Of a stretch of DNA of 64,000 nucleotides, positions 1 to 36,648 are shown piece by piece (position 1 is the first letter of the stretch; each line of letters begins with the position of its first letter). Below the pieces are notes generated by a model. It saw only the letters and a list, made by a program, of their open reading frames with translations, did not search any database and was not told the origin of the DNA. The DNA is from Actinoallomurus bryophytorum (GTDB taxonomy: Bacteria > Actinomycetota > Actinomycetes > Streptosporangiales > Streptosporangiaceae), in assembly GCF_006716425.1 (NCBI RefSeq), contig NZ_VFOZ01000001.1, positions 2,914,001 to 2,978,000 on the forward strand, written 5' to 3'. The position numbers and the translations under genes were made by a program.

Positions 1-3000
1 CGGGTTGGAACCCAGGAAACGCCGCATCTCCTCGGTGTAGCCGGCGACGATGACGACGACCTCGTCGCGATGGTCCTCCATCAGCTTCAGGAGCGTCTCC
101 ACCGCCTCGTGGCCGAAGTCGTTCGAGGAGCCCTCCGGAGTGAGGGTGTACGCCTCGTCGATGAACAGCACGCCGCCCAGCGCACTCTGGAACACCTCTC
201 TGGTGAGCTGCGCGGTGTGGCCGACGAACCGGCCGACCAGGTCCGCACGCGCCACTTCCACGAGCTGCCCGCGGCGCAGCACGCCGAGGGCGCGCAGCAG
301 CTCGGCGTAGAGCCGTGCCACGGTGGTCTTGCCGGTGCCGGGCGAGCCGGTGAAGACCAGGTGACGGCTGATGTTGGGCGCGGGCAGCCCGGCCGCCTCC
401 CGCTGCTTCGCCGCGGCCAGCAGGTCGACCATGTCCCTCACCTCGCGCTTCACGGCGCCGAGGCCGATCATGCCGGAGAGGCGGCCCAGCAGCGTCTCAC
501 GGTCCGCGGAAATCTCCGTCACCTGCGCGGCCTCGTCGCTGACGTCCTCGGGCAGGAGCAGGGACAGGTCGCTCTCGGCCGGGTCGGTCATCGCTGCCAG
601 CCGGAACGCCTGGCGGTCGACCATCTCCTCGAAAACGAGGCGCGCCGCGCGGCCGTTGCCGAACGTGGCGTCGCGCGGCATGCGCTCGTAGTGCGCGGCG
701 AGCGCCTGCCGGGTGAGGGGGCCCAGCTCGTACCGGTGGTTGCGGCACATGCCCTCGGTGATCGTCACCAGGTCCTCGACCGTGTAGTTGGTGAACTCGA
801 TGGTCCGGCTGAACCGCGAGGCCATGCCGGGGTTGGCCGACAGGAACGACTGCATCTCGACGGTGTAGCCGGCGGCCACCACTACGACGTCGTCGCGGTG
901 GTCCTCCATGAGCTTCACCAGCGTGTCGATGGCCTCACGGCCGAAGTCGCTGCCGCCCTTGCTTTCGGAGACCAGGGTGTAGGCCTCGTCGATGAACAGC
1001 ACGCCGCCCAGCGCCTCGTTGAACGCCTCCGTGGTCTTGATGGCCGTCGCGCCGACGTACTGGGCGACCAGGTCGGCGCGTGACACCTCGACCAGGTGCC
1101 CGCTGCGCAGCACGCCGAGCTCGGTGAGAATTCCGCCGTACAACCGGGCGACCGTGGTCTTGCCGGTGCCGGGAGGGCCGGCGAAGATCAGGTGCCGGCT
1201 CATCGGCGGCACGGGCATACCGAGCCGGGCACGGCGCTGCGACATCTGGTTGAGGTTGACCAGCGTGCGCACCTGCCGTTTGACCCCCTCGAGGCCGACG
1301 AGGGCGTCCAGCTCCTCCATCGGTCCCTTGGGCGCGGGCGCGCGGGTCTTGGCGGACTCGTCCGGCTCTCCGGAGGTGGATTCGTCTCCCGCCTCGACGC
1401 CCCACGAGTCGGGCGCGGCGTTGCCGGAGCTCTCCAGGTCACGCACGTTCAGCCGCCCGCCGGGGCGTGGCTGCCGCAGGCCGGCTCCCCGGTTGTCGCG
1501 TACGGTGCAGCCGAGGACGGAGACCGCCTCCGTGGTGTCGACCCGGATGCCGTCGCCGAGGCTCCCGGTCAGTTCGCAGGCGTCGAGGGTGGCACGCGCA
1601 CCGGCCGACAGGAGCACGCCGTGGGCGCCCGAGCCGCTGACCCGTGCCCGGGTCAGCGTCAGGTCGCCACCATCGCGCACCACCACACCCGAGGCACCGC
1701 TGCCGGACACCGCACAGTCCGAGGCCACGCCCATGCCGGCGGCGTCGACGGCGATGCCCGCCTCACCCGCCGAGCGCAGGTCGCAGTCGCGGAGGGTGAC
1801 GTTGGCCCCGGCTCCGATGCGCACCGCGGCGCCGGCGGCCCGCTCGACGACGCAGTGCTCCAGCCGCCCGCGCCCGTCTTCGGCGATCTCGATTCCGGTG
1901 CCGCCGGCCGCGGTGACGGTCGCGTGCCGCAGAAGCGGGTTGGCGCCGGACCGGATGACGATCGCGGCACCCGCGACGTCCACCACCTCCAGCCGGTCGA
2001 ACTCCGCCACGGAGTCCTCGGCCAGCAGCACGGACGCGGACGCGTCGGCGCACTCGCGCACCTTCGTCGCACTGAGCGACGGCGAGCTTGACCCCACGAT
2101 CCTGATCGCCGGCCCGTCCGAGCCGCTGAACTCACAGCTCTCGAACGTGCCGCGGGAGCGCTCGGTGACGGCCAGGCCGTTCTCCTTGGTCCGCGCGGTA
2201 CGGCAGCGCCGCAGCAGCGGATCCGCACCGCCGGCCAGCACGATCCCGGGACCCGCGGTGATGTCGGTGACCGAGACCTCCTCCAGCATCGGGCGCGACC
2301 CGCTGGTCACGTAGACGCCCACCGCGCAGTCGCGCACGCTGGTGCGCGCGATCCGGGTGGCGCTGTCCCCTTCGAGGGCGATGGCCGGCTTGGAGGTCGT
2401 GGTGATCTCGCAGTCCTCGACCGTGCCCTGCGCCTCGCCGTTGGCGAGTACTCCGTTGCCACGCGCGTCCCGCATCCGGCAGCCGCGGATCGTGGGCCGC
2501 GCCTTCTCGCCGAGGACGACGGCGGACGTGCCGAGGTTCTCGATCAGGCAGTCCTCGATGACGCTGACCGTCTCGGCGGTGTCGACGATCCCCGCGCCCT
2601 CGGCGTTCGTGATCCGGCATCCCCGCATCGCGAGCGAGCCGGATCCGCGGGAGAGTACGGCCGTCCAGCCGGAACCGGCCACGGTGCAGCCCTCCATCGC
2701 GACCTGGCCGTGCGCGGCGTCCACCACCGGAACGTCGTCGCCTCCGCCACGCAGCGTGAGGTCCGTGAGCATCACGGCGTCGGTCAGGAGCATCACCGCG
2801 GTGCCGCTCCGCGGGCAGATCTCCACGCTGCCCCGGTCGCCCTCGGCGACGATCGTCACCCGGGTCCGGATGACGAGGCTCTCGGCGTACCGGCCGGGCC
2901 GAATACGGATCACCGACCCCGTACGCGCCGCGGCCAGCGCCTCCTCGATCGTCCGGAAACCACCGGGCTCGTCCGGGGAGACCGTGAGCAACTGCCGTGA

Positions 3001-3003
3001 CAC
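1..3003 (-). CDS. EccA-like ATPase: right-handed beta-helix plus two CbxX/CfqX AAA domains (3' end beyond window)
   Basis: The reading frame opens at a GTG at 3003, 8 nt after AAGGAG, and runs leftward off the window edge, so the C-terminus is missing. Residues about 15-510 form a long right-handed parallel beta-helix made of repeated 'x-I-x-x-C-x-I' rungs. Two successive CbxX/CfqX-type AAA modules follow. Each has a Walker A (GPPGTGKTT near residue 607; GSPGTGKTT near 886) and a Walker B followed by FIDEAYTL. CbxX-type ATPases include EccA of type VII secretion, which remodels substrates before export. Classical EccA has an N-terminal TPR region and one AAA domain, so this is an enlarged variant. 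The divergent mycosin-like protease gene supports a type VII role. Exact partner and substrates are not visible. Confidence 0.85.
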   Translation of the reverse strand, partial: MSRQLLTVSPDEPGGFRTIEEALAAARTGSVIRIRPGRYAESLVIRTRVTIVAEGDRGSVEICPRSGTAVMLLTDAVMLTDLTLRGGGDDVPVVDAAHGQVAMEGCTVAGSGWTAVLSRGSGSLAMRGCRITNAEGAGIVDTAETVSVIEDCLIENLGTSAVVLGEKARPTIRGCRMRDARGNGVLANGEAQGTVEDCEITTTSKPAIALEGDSATRIARTSVRDCAVGVYVTSGSRPMLEEVSVTDITAGPGIVLAGGADPLLRRCRTARTKENGLAVTERSRGTFESCEFSGSDGPAIRIVGSSSPSLSATKVRECADASASVLLAEDSVAEFDRLEVVDVAGAAIVIRSGANPLLRHATVTAAGGTGIEIAEDGRGRLEHCVVERAAGAAVRIGAGANVTLRDCDLRSAGEAGIAVDAAGMGVASDCAVSGSGASGVVVRDGGDLTLTRARVSGSGAHGVLLSAGARATLDACELTGSLGDGIRVDTTEAVSVLGCTVRDNRGAGLRQPRPGGRLNVRDLESSGNAAPDSWGVEAGDESTSGEPDESAKTRAPAPKGPMEELDALVGLEGVKRQVRTLVNLNQMSQRRARLGMPVPPMSRHLIFAGPPGTGKTTVARLYGGILTELGVLRSGHLVEVSRADLVAQYVGATAIKTTEAFNEALGGVLFIDEAYTLVSESKGGSDFGREAIDTLVKLMEDHRDDVVVVAAGYTVEMQSFLSANPGMASRFSRTIEFTNYTVEDLVTITEGMCRNHRYELGPLTRQALAAHYERMPRDATFGNGRAARLVFEEMVDRQAFRLAAMTDPAESDLSLLLPEDVSDEAAQVTEISADRETLLGRLSGMIGLGAVKREVRDMVDLLAAAKQREAAGLPAPNISRHLVFTGSPGTGKTTVARLYAELLRALGVLRRGQLVEVARADLVGRFVGHTAQLTREVFQSALGGVLFIDEAYTLTPEGSSNDFGHEAVETLLKLMEDHRDEVVVIVAGYTEEMRRFLGSNP

Positions 3004-3179
3004 GCTGGACTCTCCTTGAGGGGGGCCGATTTCGGGGGACGGCCGGGGCAGGGGTCGCAGCATCCATCATGCCGCGCGCGCGTCTCACTTGGCACCCTTC
3101 CGTGCAATGGCTCTGACCAGCACCGACGTTTGCCGTACGCGACAAGAGAACGACAAGACGTGCGTCGTAGCCTCTTCGC

Positions 3180-4478
3180 ATGCGACGTGTATCTCGTCCC
3201 CTGCGCGCCGCAGTGTCGGTGGCCGTCGCCACAATCCCGGTGCTGTGCTCCGCTCTTCCCGGAGCCGCCGCCACGATGGCCGGTGCCCCGTCCGCCGACG
3301 ATCCGGGACCCGTCAGCCTGCCCGTCATCTCCTCGACCCTGGCCCCCGGCCGGTCGTGCACGGACACGTCGCCCACGCAGGCCCACGCGCAGCCCTGGAC
3401 CGTGCGGGCCCTGGGCCTCTCCCGTGCCCGGCAGCTCACCCAGGGCGCCGGGATCACCGTCGCCGTGGTGGATACCGGGGTGGGCACGAGCGCCCCGGCA
3501 CTGGCCGGCCGGGTGACCGCCACGGCAGGCTCCGGCCAGGACTGCGTGGGACACGGCAGTTTCGCGGCCGGCCTGATCGCCGCCGCCGTCGACGACACCG
3601 GCGGTGGCGGCGTAGCACCCGAGGCGCGGATCCTCGCCGTACGCGCGACCGACGCGCGCGGGACCGCCACTCCCGGCAAGGTCGCGGCCGGCATCCGCGC
3701 CGCCGTGGACCGGGGAGCCGGAGTCGTCTACGTCGGCGCGGCCCTGACGACCGGGAGAGACGAGCTCACCGCCGCGGTCGCCTACGCCACGCAGAAGAAC
3801 GTCCTGGTCGTCGCGCCCGCGGCCCCCGACGTCGCGCCCGCCGCCTCCACCGCCACGCCGCCGGCCTCCGGCACCGTGCCCCCCGCCGCGGGAGGCAACG
3901 CCCCCAGCGCCCCCAGCGTCGCCGGCGGCAACACGCTCGACCCGACCGCGCGGCCGTACTTTCCCGCGTTCATCCCCCAGGTGGTCTCGGTCGAGGACTT
4001 CGGGGCGGACGGCAGCCGTCCCAAGGACGCGCCGGACATCTTCGCGGCCGACCTGGCCGCACCGGGCGACGCCGTGGTGAGCATCGGCCCGAAGGGCACC
4101 GGCAACTTCATCGGCTCCGGCTCGTCCCTGGCGGCGGCCAACGTCGCCGGGACCGCGGCTCTGGTCCTCGCCTACCACCCGCACCTGACGCCCGCGCAGA
4201 TCCAGCGTGACCTTGTCGTCTCCGCCTATCCCGCGGCCATTCCGGTCCTGGACCCGTACGCGGCCGTGGCCGCGGTGCCCTCCATCGAGGCGGGCGGCGC
4301 ACCGGGACCGGCCGACCCCGTACGGATGACCGGGCACGCGACCTCCGGCCCGCGTACCCGTGCCCTGGCCATCGCCGCCGTGGGCGGCGGGATCGTGGCT
4401 TTGGTGGCGGGCGCGGCGGTGGTCATCCCGCTCGGCCGTGCCAGGCGCTGGCGCCCCGCCGGGGGCAAGACGGACTGA
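3180..4478 (+). CDS. Mycosin-like subtilase (type VII secretion protease MycP family), possibly degenerate
   Basis: 432 aa. A signal peptide spans about residues 1-32, an S8 subtilisin-like domain about 75-365, and a C-terminal membrane helix about 396-418 is followed by basic residues. This is the usual MycP layout of a membrane-anchored protease facing outward. Catalytic candidates are Asp98 (VAVVDTGV), His125 (CVGHGSFAAG) and Ser316 (SGSSLAAANVAG). Two oddities stand out. The usual GTS-x-AAP box reads GSSLAAAN, and the stretch that normally ends in the oxyanion-hole Asn (VVAAAGN) reads VVAPAAP, so catalysis may be weakened. A Pro/Ala/Thr-rich insert covers residues 213-250. It is divergent from the EccA-like gene across 176 bp in which I see no clear promoter. 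Confidence 0.85.
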   Translation: MRRVSRPLRAAVSVAVATIPVLCSALPGAAATMAGAPSADDPGPVSLPVISSTLAPGRSCTDTSPTQAHAQPWTVRALGLSRARQLTQGAGITVAVVDTGVGTSAPALAGRVTATAGSGQDCVGHGSFAAGLIAAAVDDTGGGGVAPEARILAVRATDARGTATPGKVAAGIRAAVDRGAGVVYVGAALTTGRDELTAAVAYATQKNVLVVAPAAPDVAPAASTATPPASGTVPPAAGGNAPSAPSVAGGNTLDPTARPYFPAFIPQVVSVEDFGADGSRPKDAPDIFAADLAAPGDAVVSIGPKGTGNFIGSGSSLAAANVAGTAALVLAYHPHLTPAQIQRDLVVSAYPAAIPVLDPYAAVAAVPSIEAGGAPGPADPVRMTGHATSGPRTRALAIAAVGGGIVALVAGAAVVIPLGRARRWRPAGGKTD

Positions 4479-7148: not shown

Positions 7149-7936
7149 GCACCATCTCCTTTGCCACGCGCGACTCGGCGACGATGCTGCGCCGCAACCT
7201 CCGGCACATGCTGCGCTACCCGTCCATGACACTCATGCTCGCCGGCATGCCCGTGGTCTTCCTGCTGATATTCGTCTACGTCTTCGGCGGCACCCTGGGC
7301 GCCGGCCTCGGCGGTGTTTCGGGCGGCCGCGCCGAGTACGTCAACTACGTGACTCCCGGAATCGTCCTGATGACCATCGCCGGCGCCGCCACCGGAACGG
7401 CCGTGTCGGTGGCCATGGACATGACCGAAGGGATCGTCGGCCGGTTCCGCACCATGGCGATCTCCCGGGCCTCGGTGCTGACCGGGCACGTCGTCGGCAG
7501 CGTGATCCAGACGCTCCTCAGCATGGCGATCGTCGTCGGCGTCGCCCTGCTGATCGGGTTCCGGCCCACCGCGGGGCCCGTGGAGTGGGTCGAGGCCACG
7601 GGCATGCTCACTCTGCTCGTCCTGTCGCTCACCTGGCTGTCGGTCGCGCTCGGCCTGGTGAGCAAGACCGTCGAGTCCGCCAGCAACGCACCCATGCCGC
7701 TGATGCTCCTGCCGTTCCTCGGCAGCGGGTTCGTCCCCACCGACTCCATGCCGACCGGCCTCCGCTGGTTCGCCGAGTACCAGCCCTTCACTCCCGTCAT
7801 CGACACGCTGCGAGGACTGCTCCTGGGCACCTCGATCGGCAACAGCGCCATCCTCGCGACCGCCTGGTGCGCCGCCATCACCCTGGTCGGCTACCTCTGG
7901 TCGAAGAAACTGTTCAATCGCGACCCTTCGCGCTGA
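7145..7936 (+). CDS. ABC-2 type permease, DrrB family
   Basis: 263 aa, starting within the stop of the ATPase gene (ATGA overlap). The N-terminus (RDSATMLRRNLRHMLRYP) is the usual cytoplasmic lead of ABC-2 permeases. About six membrane helices follow, including PVVFLLIFVYVFGG, TIAGAATGTAVSV and the segment before SKKLFNRDPSR at the C-terminus. A conserved PLMLLPFLGSGFVP motif precedes the last periplasmic loop. It should form the membrane channel of the DrrAB-like exporter. No separate resistance or biosynthesis gene lies next to it, so a housekeeping or stress role linked to DUF4097 is as likely as antibiotic export. Confidence 0.9.
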   Translation: MSTISFATRDSATMLRRNLRHMLRYPSMTLMLAGMPVVFLLIFVYVFGGTLGAGLGGVSGGRAEYVNYVTPGIVLMTIAGAATGTAVSVAMDMTEGIVGRFRTMAISRASVLTGHVVGSVIQTLLSMAIVVGVALLIGFRPTAGPVEWVEATGMLTLLVLSLTWLSVALGLVSKTVESASNAPMPLMLLPFLGSGFVPTDSMPTGLRWFAEYQPFTPVIDTLRGLLLGTSIGNSAILATAWCAAITLVGYLWSKKLFNRDPSR

Positions 7937-7949
7937 ACACCCGCCACCA

Positions 7950-8006
7950 GGCCCACCGGCAGGCACACCGCGGTGACATCACCCGGGCGTCTGTGGCCGG
8001 TGGGCC
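7950..8006. terminator. Inverted repeat after the DrrB-like gene, possible terminator
   Basis: GGCCCACCGG at 7950-7959 is perfectly complementary to CCGGTGGGCC at 7997-8006, 14 bp past the permease stop. The 37-nt loop is long and there is no T-run, so termination is only a guess. The rest of 7937-8172 shows no gene. Confidence 0.3.
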
Positions 8007-8172
8007 ATGGCCGTGGAAGCCCGGGAGCTCAACCGGGGCAAACTCTGCCCCTGGTCACCGTCCGCGAGGTGCGCGAGAGTCGACCCGCGATACGGGGATA
8101 CCCGTTCATCCACCGATGACCGGATGGACCCGTGAAAGGGTCGCGGCCGTCGCACACCCCAACGGAGTCCAC

Positions 8173-9066
8173 ATGGCTGACCACGGTCACGATCTCGTCT
8201 TCGGTACGTTGCTCGAACCCCCAGAGCGGGCGCACGATGTCGTGGAGCTCGCCGAGCTGTGCGATCAGGTCGGTCTCGATCTCGTGACCCTGTCCGACCA
8301 TCCGTACTGGCCGGAGCGCCTGGACACCGTCGCGCTGCTGTCCGCGATCGTGGCGCGGACCACCAGGGTGCGGGTCATGCCGAATCTGATGAACCTGCCT
8401 CTGCGCCCGCCGGCGATGCTGGCCCGCATGGCGACGACGCTGGACATTCTCAGCGACGGGCGGTTCGACCTCGGCGTGGCGACCGGCGCGCAGCAACTGT
8501 GGGACTCCATCGTCGCGGAGGGCGGGCCCGCCAGGAGCGCGGCGGAGTCGATCGAGGCGCTCGAGGAAGCCGTGCAGATCATCCGCGCGCTGTGGGCCTC
8601 CGACGCGGACGTGACTTTCGAGGGGAAGCACTACCACCTCCGCGGCGCCAAACCGTGCCCCGCACCAGTGCACGACATCGCCATCTGGCTCGGTGCCTAC
8701 CAGCCGCGCATGCTGCGCCGGACCGGGCGGACGGCCGACGGCTGGCTTCCCAGCTCCTCGGCCATGCCCCCGGAGGGTCTCGCCGCCGCCGGCAAGCTCA
8801 TCGACGAGGCGGCCACCGAGGCCGGTCGCTCCCCCGCGGCCGTACGCCGTGGGTACAACATCGAAGGGAACTTCTCCGGCACCGGCGCGGGCTTCCTTCA
8901 GGGGCCACCTGCCGTGTGGGTGGAGCAGCTCACCGAACTCGCTCTCGTCCACGGCATCAGCGCCTTCATCCTCTACCGGGTGAGCTCCGCCGACGTGATC
9001 AAAGAGTTCGCCGAGGACGTCGCGCCTGCGGTACGCGAAACGGTCGCCGCCGAGCGGTCACGCTGA
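8173..9066 (+). CDS. LLM-class (luciferase-like) flavin/F420-dependent oxidoreductase
   Basis: 297 aa. I chose the ATG at 8173 because GGAG lies 5 nt upstream; an in-frame start at 8116 would only add a basic leader. The TIM-barrel signature of luciferase-like monooxygenases is present: FGTLLEPPE, LSDHPYWPERLD, LDILSDGRFDLGVATG, and RRTGRTADGWLPSS near the C-terminal third. Members use FMN or F420 and oxidise or reduce small organic substrates in the cytoplasm; F420 use is frequent in actinomycetes. It stands alone, with a convergent TetR gene 34 bp downstream. Substrate unknown. Confidence 0.85.
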   Translation: MADHGHDLVFGTLLEPPERAHDVVELAELCDQVGLDLVTLSDHPYWPERLDTVALLSAIVARTTRVRVMPNLMNLPLRPPAMLARMATTLDILSDGRFDLGVATGAQQLWDSIVAEGGPARSAAESIEALEEAVQIIRALWASDADVTFEGKHYHLRGAKPCPAPVHDIAIWLGAYQPRMLRRTGRTADGWLPSSSAMPPEGLAAAGKLIDEAATEAGRSPAAVRRGYNIEGNFSGTGAGFLQGPPAVWVEQLTELALVHGISAFILYRVSSADVIKEFAEDVAPAVRETVAAERSR

Positions 9067-34529: not shown

Positions 34530-35624
34530 TCAGGGCGTCACCTCGGGAGGCGTGAGCGTGCCGATCTCGTGGATGTTCAGCGGACGGTACGCGTGGTACG
34601 GGCTGGGAGCGTCCAGGGCGTAGGCCAGGACGAGGTGATCCGTGCCGTATCCACGTCGTTGCTGGTACACCCAGTACCGCGTGTGCGCTGCGTCCGCCCA
34701 CCGGTCGAACACCGCGACCTGGCGGGTCCCGGCGTCGCCGGTCGGGTTGATGACCAGGTCACCGGGCAGGAGCTCGGTGGGCGCGATCCTGCGGGTGTAC
34801 TGGCCCGATGCGAGGTCCGGGGAGTTCGGGCCGGGCGTGGGGAGTCCGACGGCCATCGAGGCGTAGCCGGAGCCGTCCGTGCGGTACCCCTGGTAGAAGC
34901 GGCTCTGGCTGTAGGGGATCCGCAGGTCGGTGTGCGGGTGCCACGTCCGTACACGGGCGAGGATCTCCTCCCTGGTCAGCCACTTGGCGGAGGGTTGTAT
35001 CGGCTCGGCCGGGGTCGTGCGGAGCGAGAGCCCGATGACGAGGCCGGCGGCCCCGGCGGCGATGGCGCAGCCCAGAAGGGTTCCCACGAAGATGGTCCGG
35101 CCCCGTCGCGACCGGGCCGGGCGTGGACCGCCGGGGTGGACCGGGGGCTCGTGGGCGCCGGGGCCGGCCGTGCCTGCCGGGCGGGCCGCGCTCGCGGGAT
35201 CGCCGTTGGTCGCCTCGCCGTTGGTCGCGTGGCCGTTGGTCGCGTGGCCGTTGGTCGCGTGGTCGGCCGGGTGGGGCGGGCCGGCCGGGTGGGGCGGGCC
35301 GGCCGCGTCTAATGGCCCTGCCGGATCGGGAGGATCGGCGAACTGCCGTGCCCGCCGCTCGTCTTCGGCCCGCTGCCACAGGGCGTTCAGGTGGCCGGAG
35401 TCCCCCGCGCACAGCTCGGCCATGTTCACCACGGCCTCACGCGGAATCCAGGTCTCCCCGGAGAGCCAGCGGCCCCAGGAGGAGCGGCTGGCGTGGGTCT
35501 TCATCGCCAGGGCGCGCAGGTCGTAGCCGGATCGGTCCTTCAGGAGACGGAGTTCTCCCAGCAGTGTTCGAACCGCCTGGGGAAGGTCGTCCGGCAGCGG
35601 ACTCAGTTGTCGGCTTCGGCTCAC
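34530..35624 (-). CDS. XRE-type HTH, transmembrane, NlpC/P60-like pseudoenzyme regulator
   Basis: 364 aa. Residues about 14-62 form an XRE helix-turn-helix (VRTLLGELRLLKDRSGYDLR; HASRSSWGRWLSGETWIP). A Pro/Gly linker includes HATNG repeats (122-141). A membrane helix spans 177-201, so the C-terminal domain (215-352) should lie outside. That domain aligns along its length with the divergent secreted NlpC/P60 protein (TWHPHT, PYSQ, GYRTD-SGYASMA, LLPGDLVI, YGTDH, YHAY), but the catalytic Cys is Gly251 (codon GGC, 34872-34874) and the catalytic His is Gln302. I infer a one-component membrane sensor whose outer domain binds, but cannot cut, cell-wall peptides. Confidence 0.85.
   Translation of the reverse strand: MSRSRQLSPLPDDLPQAVRTLLGELRLLKDRSGYDLRALAMKTHASRSSWGRWLSGETWIPREAVVNMAELCAGDSGHLNALWQRAEDERRARQFADPPDPAGPLDAAGPPHPAGPPHPADHATNGHATNGHATNGEATNGDPASAARPAGTAGPGAHEPPVHPGGPRPARSRRGRTIFVGTLLGCAIAAGAAGLVIGLSLRTTPAEPIQPSAKWLTREEILARVRTWHPHTDLRIPYSQSRFYQGYRTDGSGYASMAVGLPTPGPNSPDLASGQYTRRIAPTELLPGDLVINPTGDAGTRQVAVFDRWADAAHTRYWVYQQRRGYGTDHLVLAYALDAPSPYHAYRPLNIHEIGTLTPPEVTP
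35201..35260. repeat. Four tandem 15-bp units inside the XRE regulator gene
   Basis: Four copies of a 15-mer close to GGCCGTTGGTCGCGT lie head to tail and encode the pentapeptide repeat HATNG/EATNG on the minus strand, within the linker between the DNA-binding domain and the membrane helix. Copy number may vary between strains. Confidence 0.85.
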
Positions 35625-35740
35625 CTCTCTACCTTTCCGCTATTACATCTCCAATATTGCTGGATCAGGCTGTTTGCGATGCTTGCCGTTGCGACGTTTC
35701 TAGTCCAGACCGGGTGCCCCGGTAGTCCGTTTTCACGGAT

Positions 35741-35781
35741 CTCGACCATGACGAATACTCGGAGTAGTCATAATGGTCGAG
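35741..35781. promoter_or_regulatory. 41-bp imperfect palindrome between the XRE regulator and the NlpC/P60 gene
   Basis: Centred on 35761, arms CTCGACCAT (35741-35749) and ATGGTCGAG (35773-35781) enclose TACTC-G-GAGTA, with 17 of 20 positions paired. It lies in the 403-bp gap (35625-36027) between the divergent genes, so it is a candidate operator or transcript hairpin for the pair. The gap is AT-richer than its flanks. A weak 56-aa minus-strand frame (35665-35835) also covers it but I do not trust it as a gene. Confidence 0.5.
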
Positions 35782-36027
35782 CCACCGGCCAGCGGGTTTC
35801 CCTGACACCTTGATGCTGGTCAGGAGATAGTCCATTGTCCCATCGACGTCCCACGTCGCCGGAGTATGCCCTGTTCGAACGCGCGAGGGGTGAAGTTTTC
35901 GTCCCGGGACCTGCGAATCCTCTAGCAATGAAGGACTCGTCTATCTACGTTATTCACCGTTCGGTCTTTGCGGCATACCGACAACCCGACGGAATATCGC
36001 ATCCCCGAGATCAGATGGAGAAGTCTC

Positions 36028-36648
36028 ATGCGCACGCAACTCGCAGTTCGTATCGGCGCAGGCGCCCTGGCACTGTCCGGCGCCGCGGCAGCCGTCTACG
36101 GATTCACCGCGACCCCCTCCGCCCACCCCTCACAGACGCGTCAGGCCGACGTCGCCGTGCAGGCGGCCGCTCAGCAGAAGGCCCTCCCGCAGAAGGCCGC
36201 CGCCGCCCAGGGAACCGTCACCGCCCTCGCCACCATCACCAGGGCCAAGGTGCTGGCCAACGCCAAGACCTGGCACCCGCACACCGCCCAGCGCGTGCCG
36301 TACAGCCAGGCGAAGACGCACAACGGATACCGCACCGACTGCTCGGGCTACGCCTCGATGGCCCTCGCCCTGGGCAAGCCCGGGCTGAACACCGTCGGCC
36401 TGGCCGGTTCGGCGACCACCAAGCGCATCGCGATGTCGGCACTGAAGCCCGGCGACCTCATCATCGACGCCACCGGCACGAGTAACACCCGCCACGTCGT
36501 CATCTTCGAGAAGTGGGCCAACAGCGCGCACAGCTCGTACTGGGAGTACGAGCAGCGCGGGTCCTACGGCACCGACCACCGCACGCGCACGTACGGCCTG
36601 GCCAGCGGCAGTCAGTACCACGCCTACCACCCGAAGAAGCTCGTCTGA
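36028..36648 (+). CDS. Secreted NlpC/P60-like peptidase
   Basis: 206 aa from the ATG at 36028 with GGAGAAG upstream. A signal peptide or N-terminal anchor (RIGAGALALSGAAAAVYGFT) precedes an Ala/Gln-rich spacer (40-66) and an NlpC/P60-like domain (70-206). Catalytic Cys105 sits in GYRTDCSGYASMA and His156 in NTRHVVIF; Glu173 or nearby polar residues may complete the site. NlpC/P60 enzymes cut peptide bonds of peptidoglycan stems. The nearest relative in the window is the outer domain of the divergent XRE regulator, which lacks both catalytic residues. A strong terminator follows. Confidence 0.85.
   Translation: MRTQLAVRIGAGALALSGAAAAVYGFTATPSAHPSQTRQADVAVQAAAQQKALPQKAAAAQGTVTALATITRAKVLANAKTWHPHTAQRVPYSQAKTHNGYRTDCSGYASMALALGKPGLNTVGLAGSATTKRIAMSALKPGDLIIDATGTSNTRHVVIFEKWANSAHSSYWEYEQRGSYGTDHRTRTYGLASGSQYHAYHPKKLV

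Follow-up and report, generated by a model that had tools for sequence, protein, structure and literature searches.

Why should a membrane-bound DNA-binding protein carry a catalytically dead copy of the enzyme domain that is encoded next to it? This question is raised by two divergent genes in a 64,000-nucleotide stretch of the genome of the soil actinobacterium Actinoallomurus bryophytorum (contig NZ_VFOZ01000001.1, positions 2,914,001 to 2,978,000 of the forward strand), the whole of which is referred to here as the window. To our knowledge, little is settled about the way in which bacteria gauge the condition of the wall when pacing their hydrolases. The original prediction, made from the letters of the window, had paired a minus-strand regulator with a plus-strand secreted enzyme of the NlpC/P60 family that shares a domain with it, and both open reading frames and the shared domain were found where they had been placed:

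34530..35624, minus strand: regulator, 364 amino acids, GTG start, with HTH_31, a Pro/Ala-rich linker, a single predicted membrane helix and a dead NlpC/P60-like domain (open reading frame, translation, HTH_31 match, homologs)
34569..34985, minus strand: putative outer, dead NlpC/P60-like domain of the regulator, residues 214-352 (alignment with the enzyme)
36028..36648, plus strand: live NlpC/P60-family enzyme, 206 amino acids, with an N-terminal signal-like segment judged by eye (open reading frame, translation, PF00877)
36235..36645, plus strand: live NlpC/P60 domain of the enzyme, residues 70-206 (Pfam, alignment with the regulator)

In a single BLASTP comparison, residues 216-351 of the regulator were aligned without gaps to residues 70-205 of the enzyme, with 71 of 136 positions identical (52%), 70% similar and an E value of 7e-52, and the likeness of the two proteins is therefore not due to chance. 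The enzyme matched the Pfam family NLPC_P60 (PF00877) marginally (23.6 bits, cut-off 23.0), and a match to this family at E<=1 was obtained for each of 48 aligned enzymes. No Pfam match to NLPC_P60 was found in the outer domain of the regulator, and when 52 regulators were aligned and compared with Pfam at E<=1, PF00877 did not appear in the resulting list of 17 families; because of this, the assignment of the outer domain to the NlpC/P60 family rests on its 52% identity to the enzyme. Neither protein had an NCBIfam match above cut-off. Among sequences in the PDB, searches with single proteins gave nothing useful and the regulator profile gave no match; the enzyme profile gave a weak match to MepS/Spr (E=0.09) in which Cys105 lay opposite the Cys of DCSG and His156 was also aligned. 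The plus-strand protein is predicted to be secreted, its N-terminal hydrophobic segment being signal-like as judged by eye. With the enzyme as query, only these two copies were found in the A. bryophytorum genome at E<=1e-3; a profile of the dead domain added one weak partial match elsewhere (E=8e-7).

The catalytic residues of the enzyme and their counterparts in the regulator are the following:

36340..36342, plus strand: codon of catalytic Cys105 (invariant in 48 of 48 aligned enzymes)
36493..36495, plus strand: codon of catalytic His156 (invariant in 48 of 48 aligned enzymes; MepS/Spr alignment)
36550..36552, plus strand: codon of Glu175, the probable third catalytic residue, in YEQR (invariant in 48 of 48 aligned enzymes)
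34872..34874, minus strand: Gly251 codon (GGC) where the enzyme has its catalytic Cys (alignment; opposite TGC of the enzyme, codons read by eye)
34719..34721, minus strand: Gln302 codon in place of the catalytic His (alignment)
34662..34664, minus strand: Gln321 codon, in YQQR, in place of the probable catalytic Glu of YEQR (alignment; Gln in 64 of 64 helix-turn-helix-bearing proteins)

That Gly251 and Gln302 lie opposite Cys105 and His156 had been predicted and was confirmed by alignment. The prediction counted two lost residues and missed the third, so that the triad Cys105/His156/Glu175 of the enzyme is replaced at all three places, by Gly251/Gln302/Gln321. Glu175 fits as the third residue, since the review PMC12067865 gives the triad of RipA and RipB as Cys-His-Glu. 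Relatives of the outer domain were collected from 5.77 billion proteins, within 0.55 to 1.75 times the length of the query, and numbered 85 (87 with the two proteins of the window), of which 64, the regulator of the window included, carried the helix-turn-helix (HTH) motif SSWGRWLxGE or SSWSRWLxGE. In none of these 64 proteins was a triad residue retained at any of the three places; retention of Cys and His in such homologs had been named beforehand as an outcome that would refute the prediction, and it did not occur. The Cys place read Gly in 63 and Asp in one; the His place read Gln in 34, Glu in 27, Ala in two and Arg in one; and the Glu place read Gln throughout. At Planobispora loci, the His place reads Met. 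The 23 relatives without the HTH motif comprised nine that read Cys/His/Glu (i.e., the enzyme of the window, six proteins in which a live domain comes first and two distant relatives) and 14 that read Gly, then Gln, Glu or Ala, then Gln. In a search with the HTH half of the regulator, a live domain was found in none of 59 proteins within the same length limits, which leave shorter HTH proteins outside; 55 were dead by motif, one was dead with a variant motif, two were truncated records and one had a partly out-of-frame domain. Among proteins 0.55 to 1.75 times its length, this HTH subfamily was therefore encountered in no other company than that of the dead domain. In one regulator record, from Actinomadura madurae (P0207), the linker, the helix and the first half of the dead domain are read in a frame that differs from that of its relatives.

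Loss of the triad was not accompanied by decay of the remainder. Of 61 columns that were at least 95% constant in the 48 aligned enzymes, 36 were retained in at least 90% of the 52 aligned regulators, many of them surrounding the Cys, His and Glu motifs, while 16 were mixed and nine were lost (Cys105, Thr122, Val123, Gly124, Asp147, His156, Glu175, Gly178 and Arg185). The regulators had five constants of their own, at Gly251, Ser268, Gln321, Arg324 and Leu331. The ratio of non-synonymous to synonymous substitution rates (dN/dS) was between 0.19 and 0.44 for the dead domain in nine of ten chosen pairs, which were not independent, and 0.71 in the other; for the live domain in the same genomes it was between 0.02 and 0.63. 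The dead domain is under purifying selection and, as read from its conserved columns, its own constants and its low dN/dS, is a specialised module rather than a decaying one. Strong conservation and five class-specific constants would also be expected of an enzyme with changed chemistry, which is extremely improbable given that no nucleophile occupies the Cys place, that the His place varies among Gln, Glu, Ala and Arg (and Met in Planobispora) and that Glu has become Gln in all 64 proteins. The outer domain is thus an NlpC/P60 domain with lost catalytic residues, of the type of the actinobacterial protein RipD (Rv1566c), which PMC12067865 describes as a non-catalytic NlpC/P60 protein that binds peptidoglycan, the domain having been kept for binding after loss of the triad. 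RipD reads Ala-Ser-Glu at the triad places as opposed to Gly-Gln-Gln in the regulator, which has a DNA-binding domain attached; an HTH or membrane regulator part is not described for RipD in the passages of that review that deal with it.

The remainder of the regulator consists of two features:

35400..35558, minus strand: HTH_31 DNA-binding domain, residues 23-75, with the near-invariant stretch SRSSWGRWLSGETWIP (Pfam PF13560, 35 bits)
35022..35096, minus strand: single predicted membrane helix, approximately residues 177-201, Gly-rich, with GxxxG and with basic RSRRGR before it (hydropathy, charge)

The HTH_31 match (35 bits, cut-off 27) was shared by all 52 aligned regulators, in which HTH_19 (26 proteins), HTH_3 (seven), HTH_26 (four) and HTH_36 (two) were also matched; the SRSSWGRWLSGETWIP stretch reads SSWSRWL in some relatives. 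A simple hydropathy analysis of the regulator indicated one hydrophobic segment at approximately residues 177-201 with its positive side facing the HTH. A single segment above threshold was likewise seen in 46 of the 52 aligned regulators, the HTH side was the more positive in 48, and GxxxG occurred at the segment in all 52. One hydrophobic segment with a positive HTH side argues that the HTH is probably inside the cell and the NlpC/P60-like domain outside, in agreement with the predicted order of HTH, helix and outer domain; the opposite topology, which would have spoken against a sensor, was not encountered. The same layout, with the HTH inside the cell, a single membrane helix and a domain outside, is found in RodZ, and a scaffold or tether of this kind, in which a non-regulatory HTH protein joins an inner partner or the nucleoid to outer peptidoglycan, is distinctly unlikely here: HTH_31 was matched in 52 of 52 regulators and HTH_25, the profile of RodZ, was not listed, while local control is the better fit to a regulator gene that is paired divergently with a single enzyme gene across an intergenic region with conserved blocks (below). 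Membership of the RodZ family itself was rejected, HTH_25 and the outer domain of RodZ both being absent from the 17 families listed for the 52 regulators at E<=1. BlaR1 is a membrane receptor with a sensor related to the enzyme class that it controls, a likeness to the present regulator; its sensor is acylated by the ligand and signals via a metalloprotease and a separate repressor, whereas the regulator lacks the catalytic residues and has its DNA-binding domain in the same chain. Membership of the BlaR1/MecR1 family was likewise rejected, on the grounds that there was no such Pfam match, that the HTH is in the same chain and that no nucleophile occupies the Cys place.

With a DNA-binding domain (HTH_31) and one hydrophobic segment in a single chain, the regulator is by architecture a transmembrane transcription regulator (TTR), and as such would bind DNA and control transcription from the membrane. 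TTRs of the ToxR, TcpP and CadC type likewise combine a DNA-binding domain and a membrane helix in one protein, and the single-pass form was the commonest in a survey of them (PMC10269533). Unlike these, the present regulator has an NlpC/P60 pseudoenzyme as its outer domain and is paired with the live paralog of that domain; NlpC, XRE and peptidoglycan are nowhere mentioned in the main text of that survey. Within the open-licence literature, no paper was found that joins NlpC P60 to both a helix-turn-helix and a pseudoenzyme, to a one-component regulator or to an XRE regulator with an extracellular domain, in a search that may miss the slash spelling NlpC/P60.

Linkage of the regulator to a live NlpC/P60 gene, on which the prediction also depended, was borne out across relatives. 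Of the 28 named loci, 24 held a divergent pair of a dead HTH protein and a live copy. These include L045, L047, L055 and L057, in which the search expression for the HTH gave no match and whose corresponding genomes carry the SSWSRWL spelling. The other four loci were L033 (Actinoallomurus soli), L052 (where the contig begins within the domain), L056 (with truncation of both genes) and L058 (a fragment). In L056 (approximately 7736-8264, Actinomadura livida), C-terminal halves of a dead regulator and a live enzyme stand head to head with the middle missing, through either a deletion or an assembly fault. An order-wide scan of 345 genomes, in which 11 candidates per genome were scored, gave a match in 73 genomes and 28 regulators, of which 27 were divergent from a live copy. 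Twenty-four of these regulators were read directly (23 paired) and four (G294, G323, G324 and G326) were counted from two strong opposite-strand matches approximately 1.4-1.6 kb apart; G117 (contig edge) and G296 (truncated) were left out of the count. The sole regulator without a live neighbour was that of G003 (probably Actinoallomurus soli; L065, 8681-9907), in which the HTH coding region is split over two frames. No live partner was found within the 18.8 kb read at this locus, and the regulator seems to be broken where its partner is gone. Live copies without an adjoining regulator numbered 36, and these copies without a dead partner are indeed live: the Cys motif was read in 35 of 36 (L061 was unresolved by the expression) and the His/Glu pair in 35 of 36 (L066 was unresolved). 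A class-wide search of 394 genomes gave more distant matches, with Cys in all 12 loci that were read (eight from other orders, including all seven matches above 100 bits there, one from the family and three from the genus).

The dead domain was predicted as a sensor on a regulator; it is not confined to HTH proteins and occurs in secreted enzymes as well. In proteins of Sphaerisporangium and Streptosporangium, it is fused behind a live domain (P0005, P0010 and others) or behind a different N-terminal domain (P0063 and others). At five loci, probably of Planobispora and Sphaerisporangium, the divergent partner of the regulator is an enzyme of the live-dead type, and at four of the five the next gene joins an N-terminal part of the P0063 type (67-85% identity) to a dead domain. 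Compared with solved chains, the N-terminal part of P0063 matched 8b2e, annotated as a muramidase (E=7e-7), and matched better 8b2h, an SH3b domain-containing protein (E=4e-11); tail tape-measure, structural and endolysin families were listed for it in PHROGs, and no Pfam family was found. Because these results are mixed, the description of this part as muramidase-like is our reading only. Since it serves two different secreted wall proteins as well as the regulator, the dead domain is best read as a ligand-binding module, and its fusion to the muramidase-like protein at four loci may hint, indirectly, at peptidoglycan as the ligand. If the module were a mere wall anchor, with the regulator answering an inner ligand, its attachment to secreted enzymes, in which only binding is possible, would be accounted for; left unexplained would be an HTH subfamily met only with this outer domain and the tie to the live gene, and we regard such an anchor as very unlikely. 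Alternatively, the dead ectodomain might sense, or compete with, the live enzyme or a partner of it and so provide feedback on enzyme level, as could be suggested by paralogous live and dead domains that are almost always encoded side by side and that are brought into contact in tandem fusions. This too appears unlikely, since retention of 36 of 61 enzyme-constant columns, many near the Cys, His and Glu motifs, would be needless for a pure protein-protein role and since one of the fusion partners of the dead domain, the muramidase-like protein, does not belong to the NlpC/P60 enzymes.

The descent of the dead domain was examined in a tree of 76 domains, obtained from 92 classified domains of at least 120 amino acids by thinning the unpaired live ones from 36 to 20. 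All 33 dead domains lay on one side of a branch with a Shimodaira-Hasegawa-like approximate likelihood ratio test (SH-aLRT) value of 88; without the three catalytic columns, and with L066 also omitted, the value was 76, which is below the star threshold, yet the grouping was not contradicted. Loss of the triad looks old and shared. The prediction noted that the Gly codon is one base from a Cys codon, which is so (GGC as opposed to TGC), but a recent one-base change does not agree with the apparent age of the loss. At L073 and L074 (probably Planobispora longispora and Planobispora siamensis), DNA identity among the three dead copies of one genome, i.e., those of the regulator and of two other genes, was 97-99% (77-84 equal four-fold sites of 81-86), whereas between the two genomes it was 86-88% (55-57 of 73-75). 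The near-identical stretch covers roughly the domain and measures 402-416 bp, or 506 bp in one pair. Identity that is greater within than between genomes indicates concerted evolution of the dead domains at the Planobispora loci; this was not seen at three Sphaerisporangium loci, where amino acid identity within a genome was 60-79%.

If the regulator controls the enzyme gene, its target would be expected between the two genes:

35625..36027, no strand assigned: divergent intergenic region, candidate control region (conserved blocks in relatives)
35837..35853, plus strand: GTCCCA-N5-GTCCCA direct repeat with an 11-bp period, candidate operator half-sites (motif enrichment)

Blocks were shared among paired intergenic regions within each clade, and TGTCCC repeats across clades. 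TGTCCC was present in 17 of 17 regions, related to one another, with 41 copies as compared with a mean of 4.5 in first-order resampling shuffles; from the 24 oriented loci, L065, L071, L111 and L115 were not extracted (the HTH expression missed them) and the near-duplicates L110, L112 and L118 were dropped. With related sequences counted, the element occurred 75 times in 14,950 bases at paired copies and 25 times in 23,381 bases at unpaired copies. CATTATG or CATAATG was found upstream of 15 of 23 paired live copies and GTCGATCGAC upstream of 13 of 23, both mainly in Actinomadura-type loci, and neither was found upstream of any of 36 unpaired copies. The only exact GTCCCA-N5-GTCCCA site in the A. 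bryophytorum genome is that of the window, where its presence is not independent because the pattern was derived from this region, and the reversed control also had one site in the genome; two of the six exact sites found genus-wide fall between a regulator and its enzyme.

A different control device was seen on the sister copies of the enzyme. A cyclic di-AMP (c-di-AMP) riboswitch was present at 26 of 36 unpaired live copies (L063, L079-L081 and L083-L104) and, by Rfam, at none of 18 paired loci scanned (all oriented loci other than L065, L070-L073 and L076). Ten genomes (G280, G283, G285, G294, G298, G301, G302, G323, G324 and G326) hold both a pair and an unpaired riboswitch copy; no such second copy was found in the A. 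bryophytorum genome. In Actinobacteria, according to PMC9960051, nearly every gene that follows this riboswitch seems to be wall related, and the same paper shows that it controls nlpC in Corynebacterium glutamicum. Together with the riboswitch on unpaired sister copies, this suggests that the enzyme belongs among the wall hydrolases, with sister copies under two control devices; the kind of target is the same as in the riboswitch systems of that source, and the paired copies carry a membrane regulator instead. A block, GCGTTTTGTCCCAC, lies 5' of the riboswitch at unpaired live copies (e.g., L080, L084 and L085), with a near form in L083, from a genome without a detected regulator. Near the unpaired live copy of L061, positions 2913-3506 matched Sernc389 (Saccharopolyspora sRNA 389) in Rfam with 188 bits.

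We consider it probable that the regulator and enzyme form a one-component unit in which a pseudoenzyme ectodomain binds the cell-wall substrate of the enzyme and controls the divergent enzyme gene. The HTH_31 domain would stay inside the cell and the pseudoenzyme domain face outside, where, because Cys, His and Glu are lost and most other enzyme-constant residues are kept, it may hold, uncut, the wall substrate on which the live enzyme acts. Ligand binding would then alter dimerisation or packing via the GxxxG membrane helix and so the grip of the HTH on the shared intergenic region, thereby setting transcription of the live hydrolase and probably that of the regulator itself. By the logic of a substrate meter, our guess as to direction is induction when uncut substrate is plentiful. 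The predicted one-component sensor is to this extent supported by architecture and linkage. The parts that are read from sequence are the architecture, the triad loss, the retained residues, the conservation of the divergent pair, the reuse of the dead module in wall enzymes and the intergenic blocks; substrate binding (to peptidoglycan in the original prediction), signal transfer, DNA binding, the target of the HTH, control of the enzyme gene and the sign of that control are what we infer. More tentatively, it is possible that the hydrolase domain was duplicated, disarmed once and made into a shared substrate-recognition module, carried by the regulator and, at the loci of some relatives, by the neighbouring enzymes too, that gene conversion can keep these copies matched, and that the cell thereby has a substrate meter, with a sister copy of the enzyme, elsewhere in the same genome, under c-di-AMP in ten relatives.

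Several observations weigh against these proposals. For most of the pairs that were compared, the dead domain evolves more rapidly than the live one, and the binding cleft of the dead domain was judged from alignment alone. The PF00877 score of the enzyme exceeds the cut-off by 0.6 bits only, and its cell-wall substrate and its cutting of peptidoglycan are themselves presumed. A single origin of dead domains is modestly supported by SH-aLRT values of 88 and, without the three catalytic columns, 76; concerted evolution, seen in two of five such loci, may reflect only gene conversion between neighbours. With regard to the intergenic region, TGTCYC was found upstream of 21 of 36 unpaired live copies and TGTCCCA upstream of 15 of 36, in some cases in genomes without a detected regulator, and the exact repeat was not enriched genus-wide (eight genomes), with six sites as compared with nine for the reversed control. 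TGTCCC may thus not be the operator of this regulator; for this reason an initial claim of a decisive operator was dropped and the element is kept as a candidate only.

The observation is stronger than first described. Since the candidate wall sensor is a dead copy of a hydrolase, the substrate of that hydrolase is the first candidate ligand and the ligand question is directly testable. Because sister copies of one enzyme are fitted with either a membrane regulator or a c-di-AMP riboswitch, the family also allows a clean comparison of these two control devices, and the sensor of the regulator and the binding modules of the enzymes appear to evolve together. If the proposal is true, the cell would possess a substrate meter, by which it measures exactly what its enzymes will cut.

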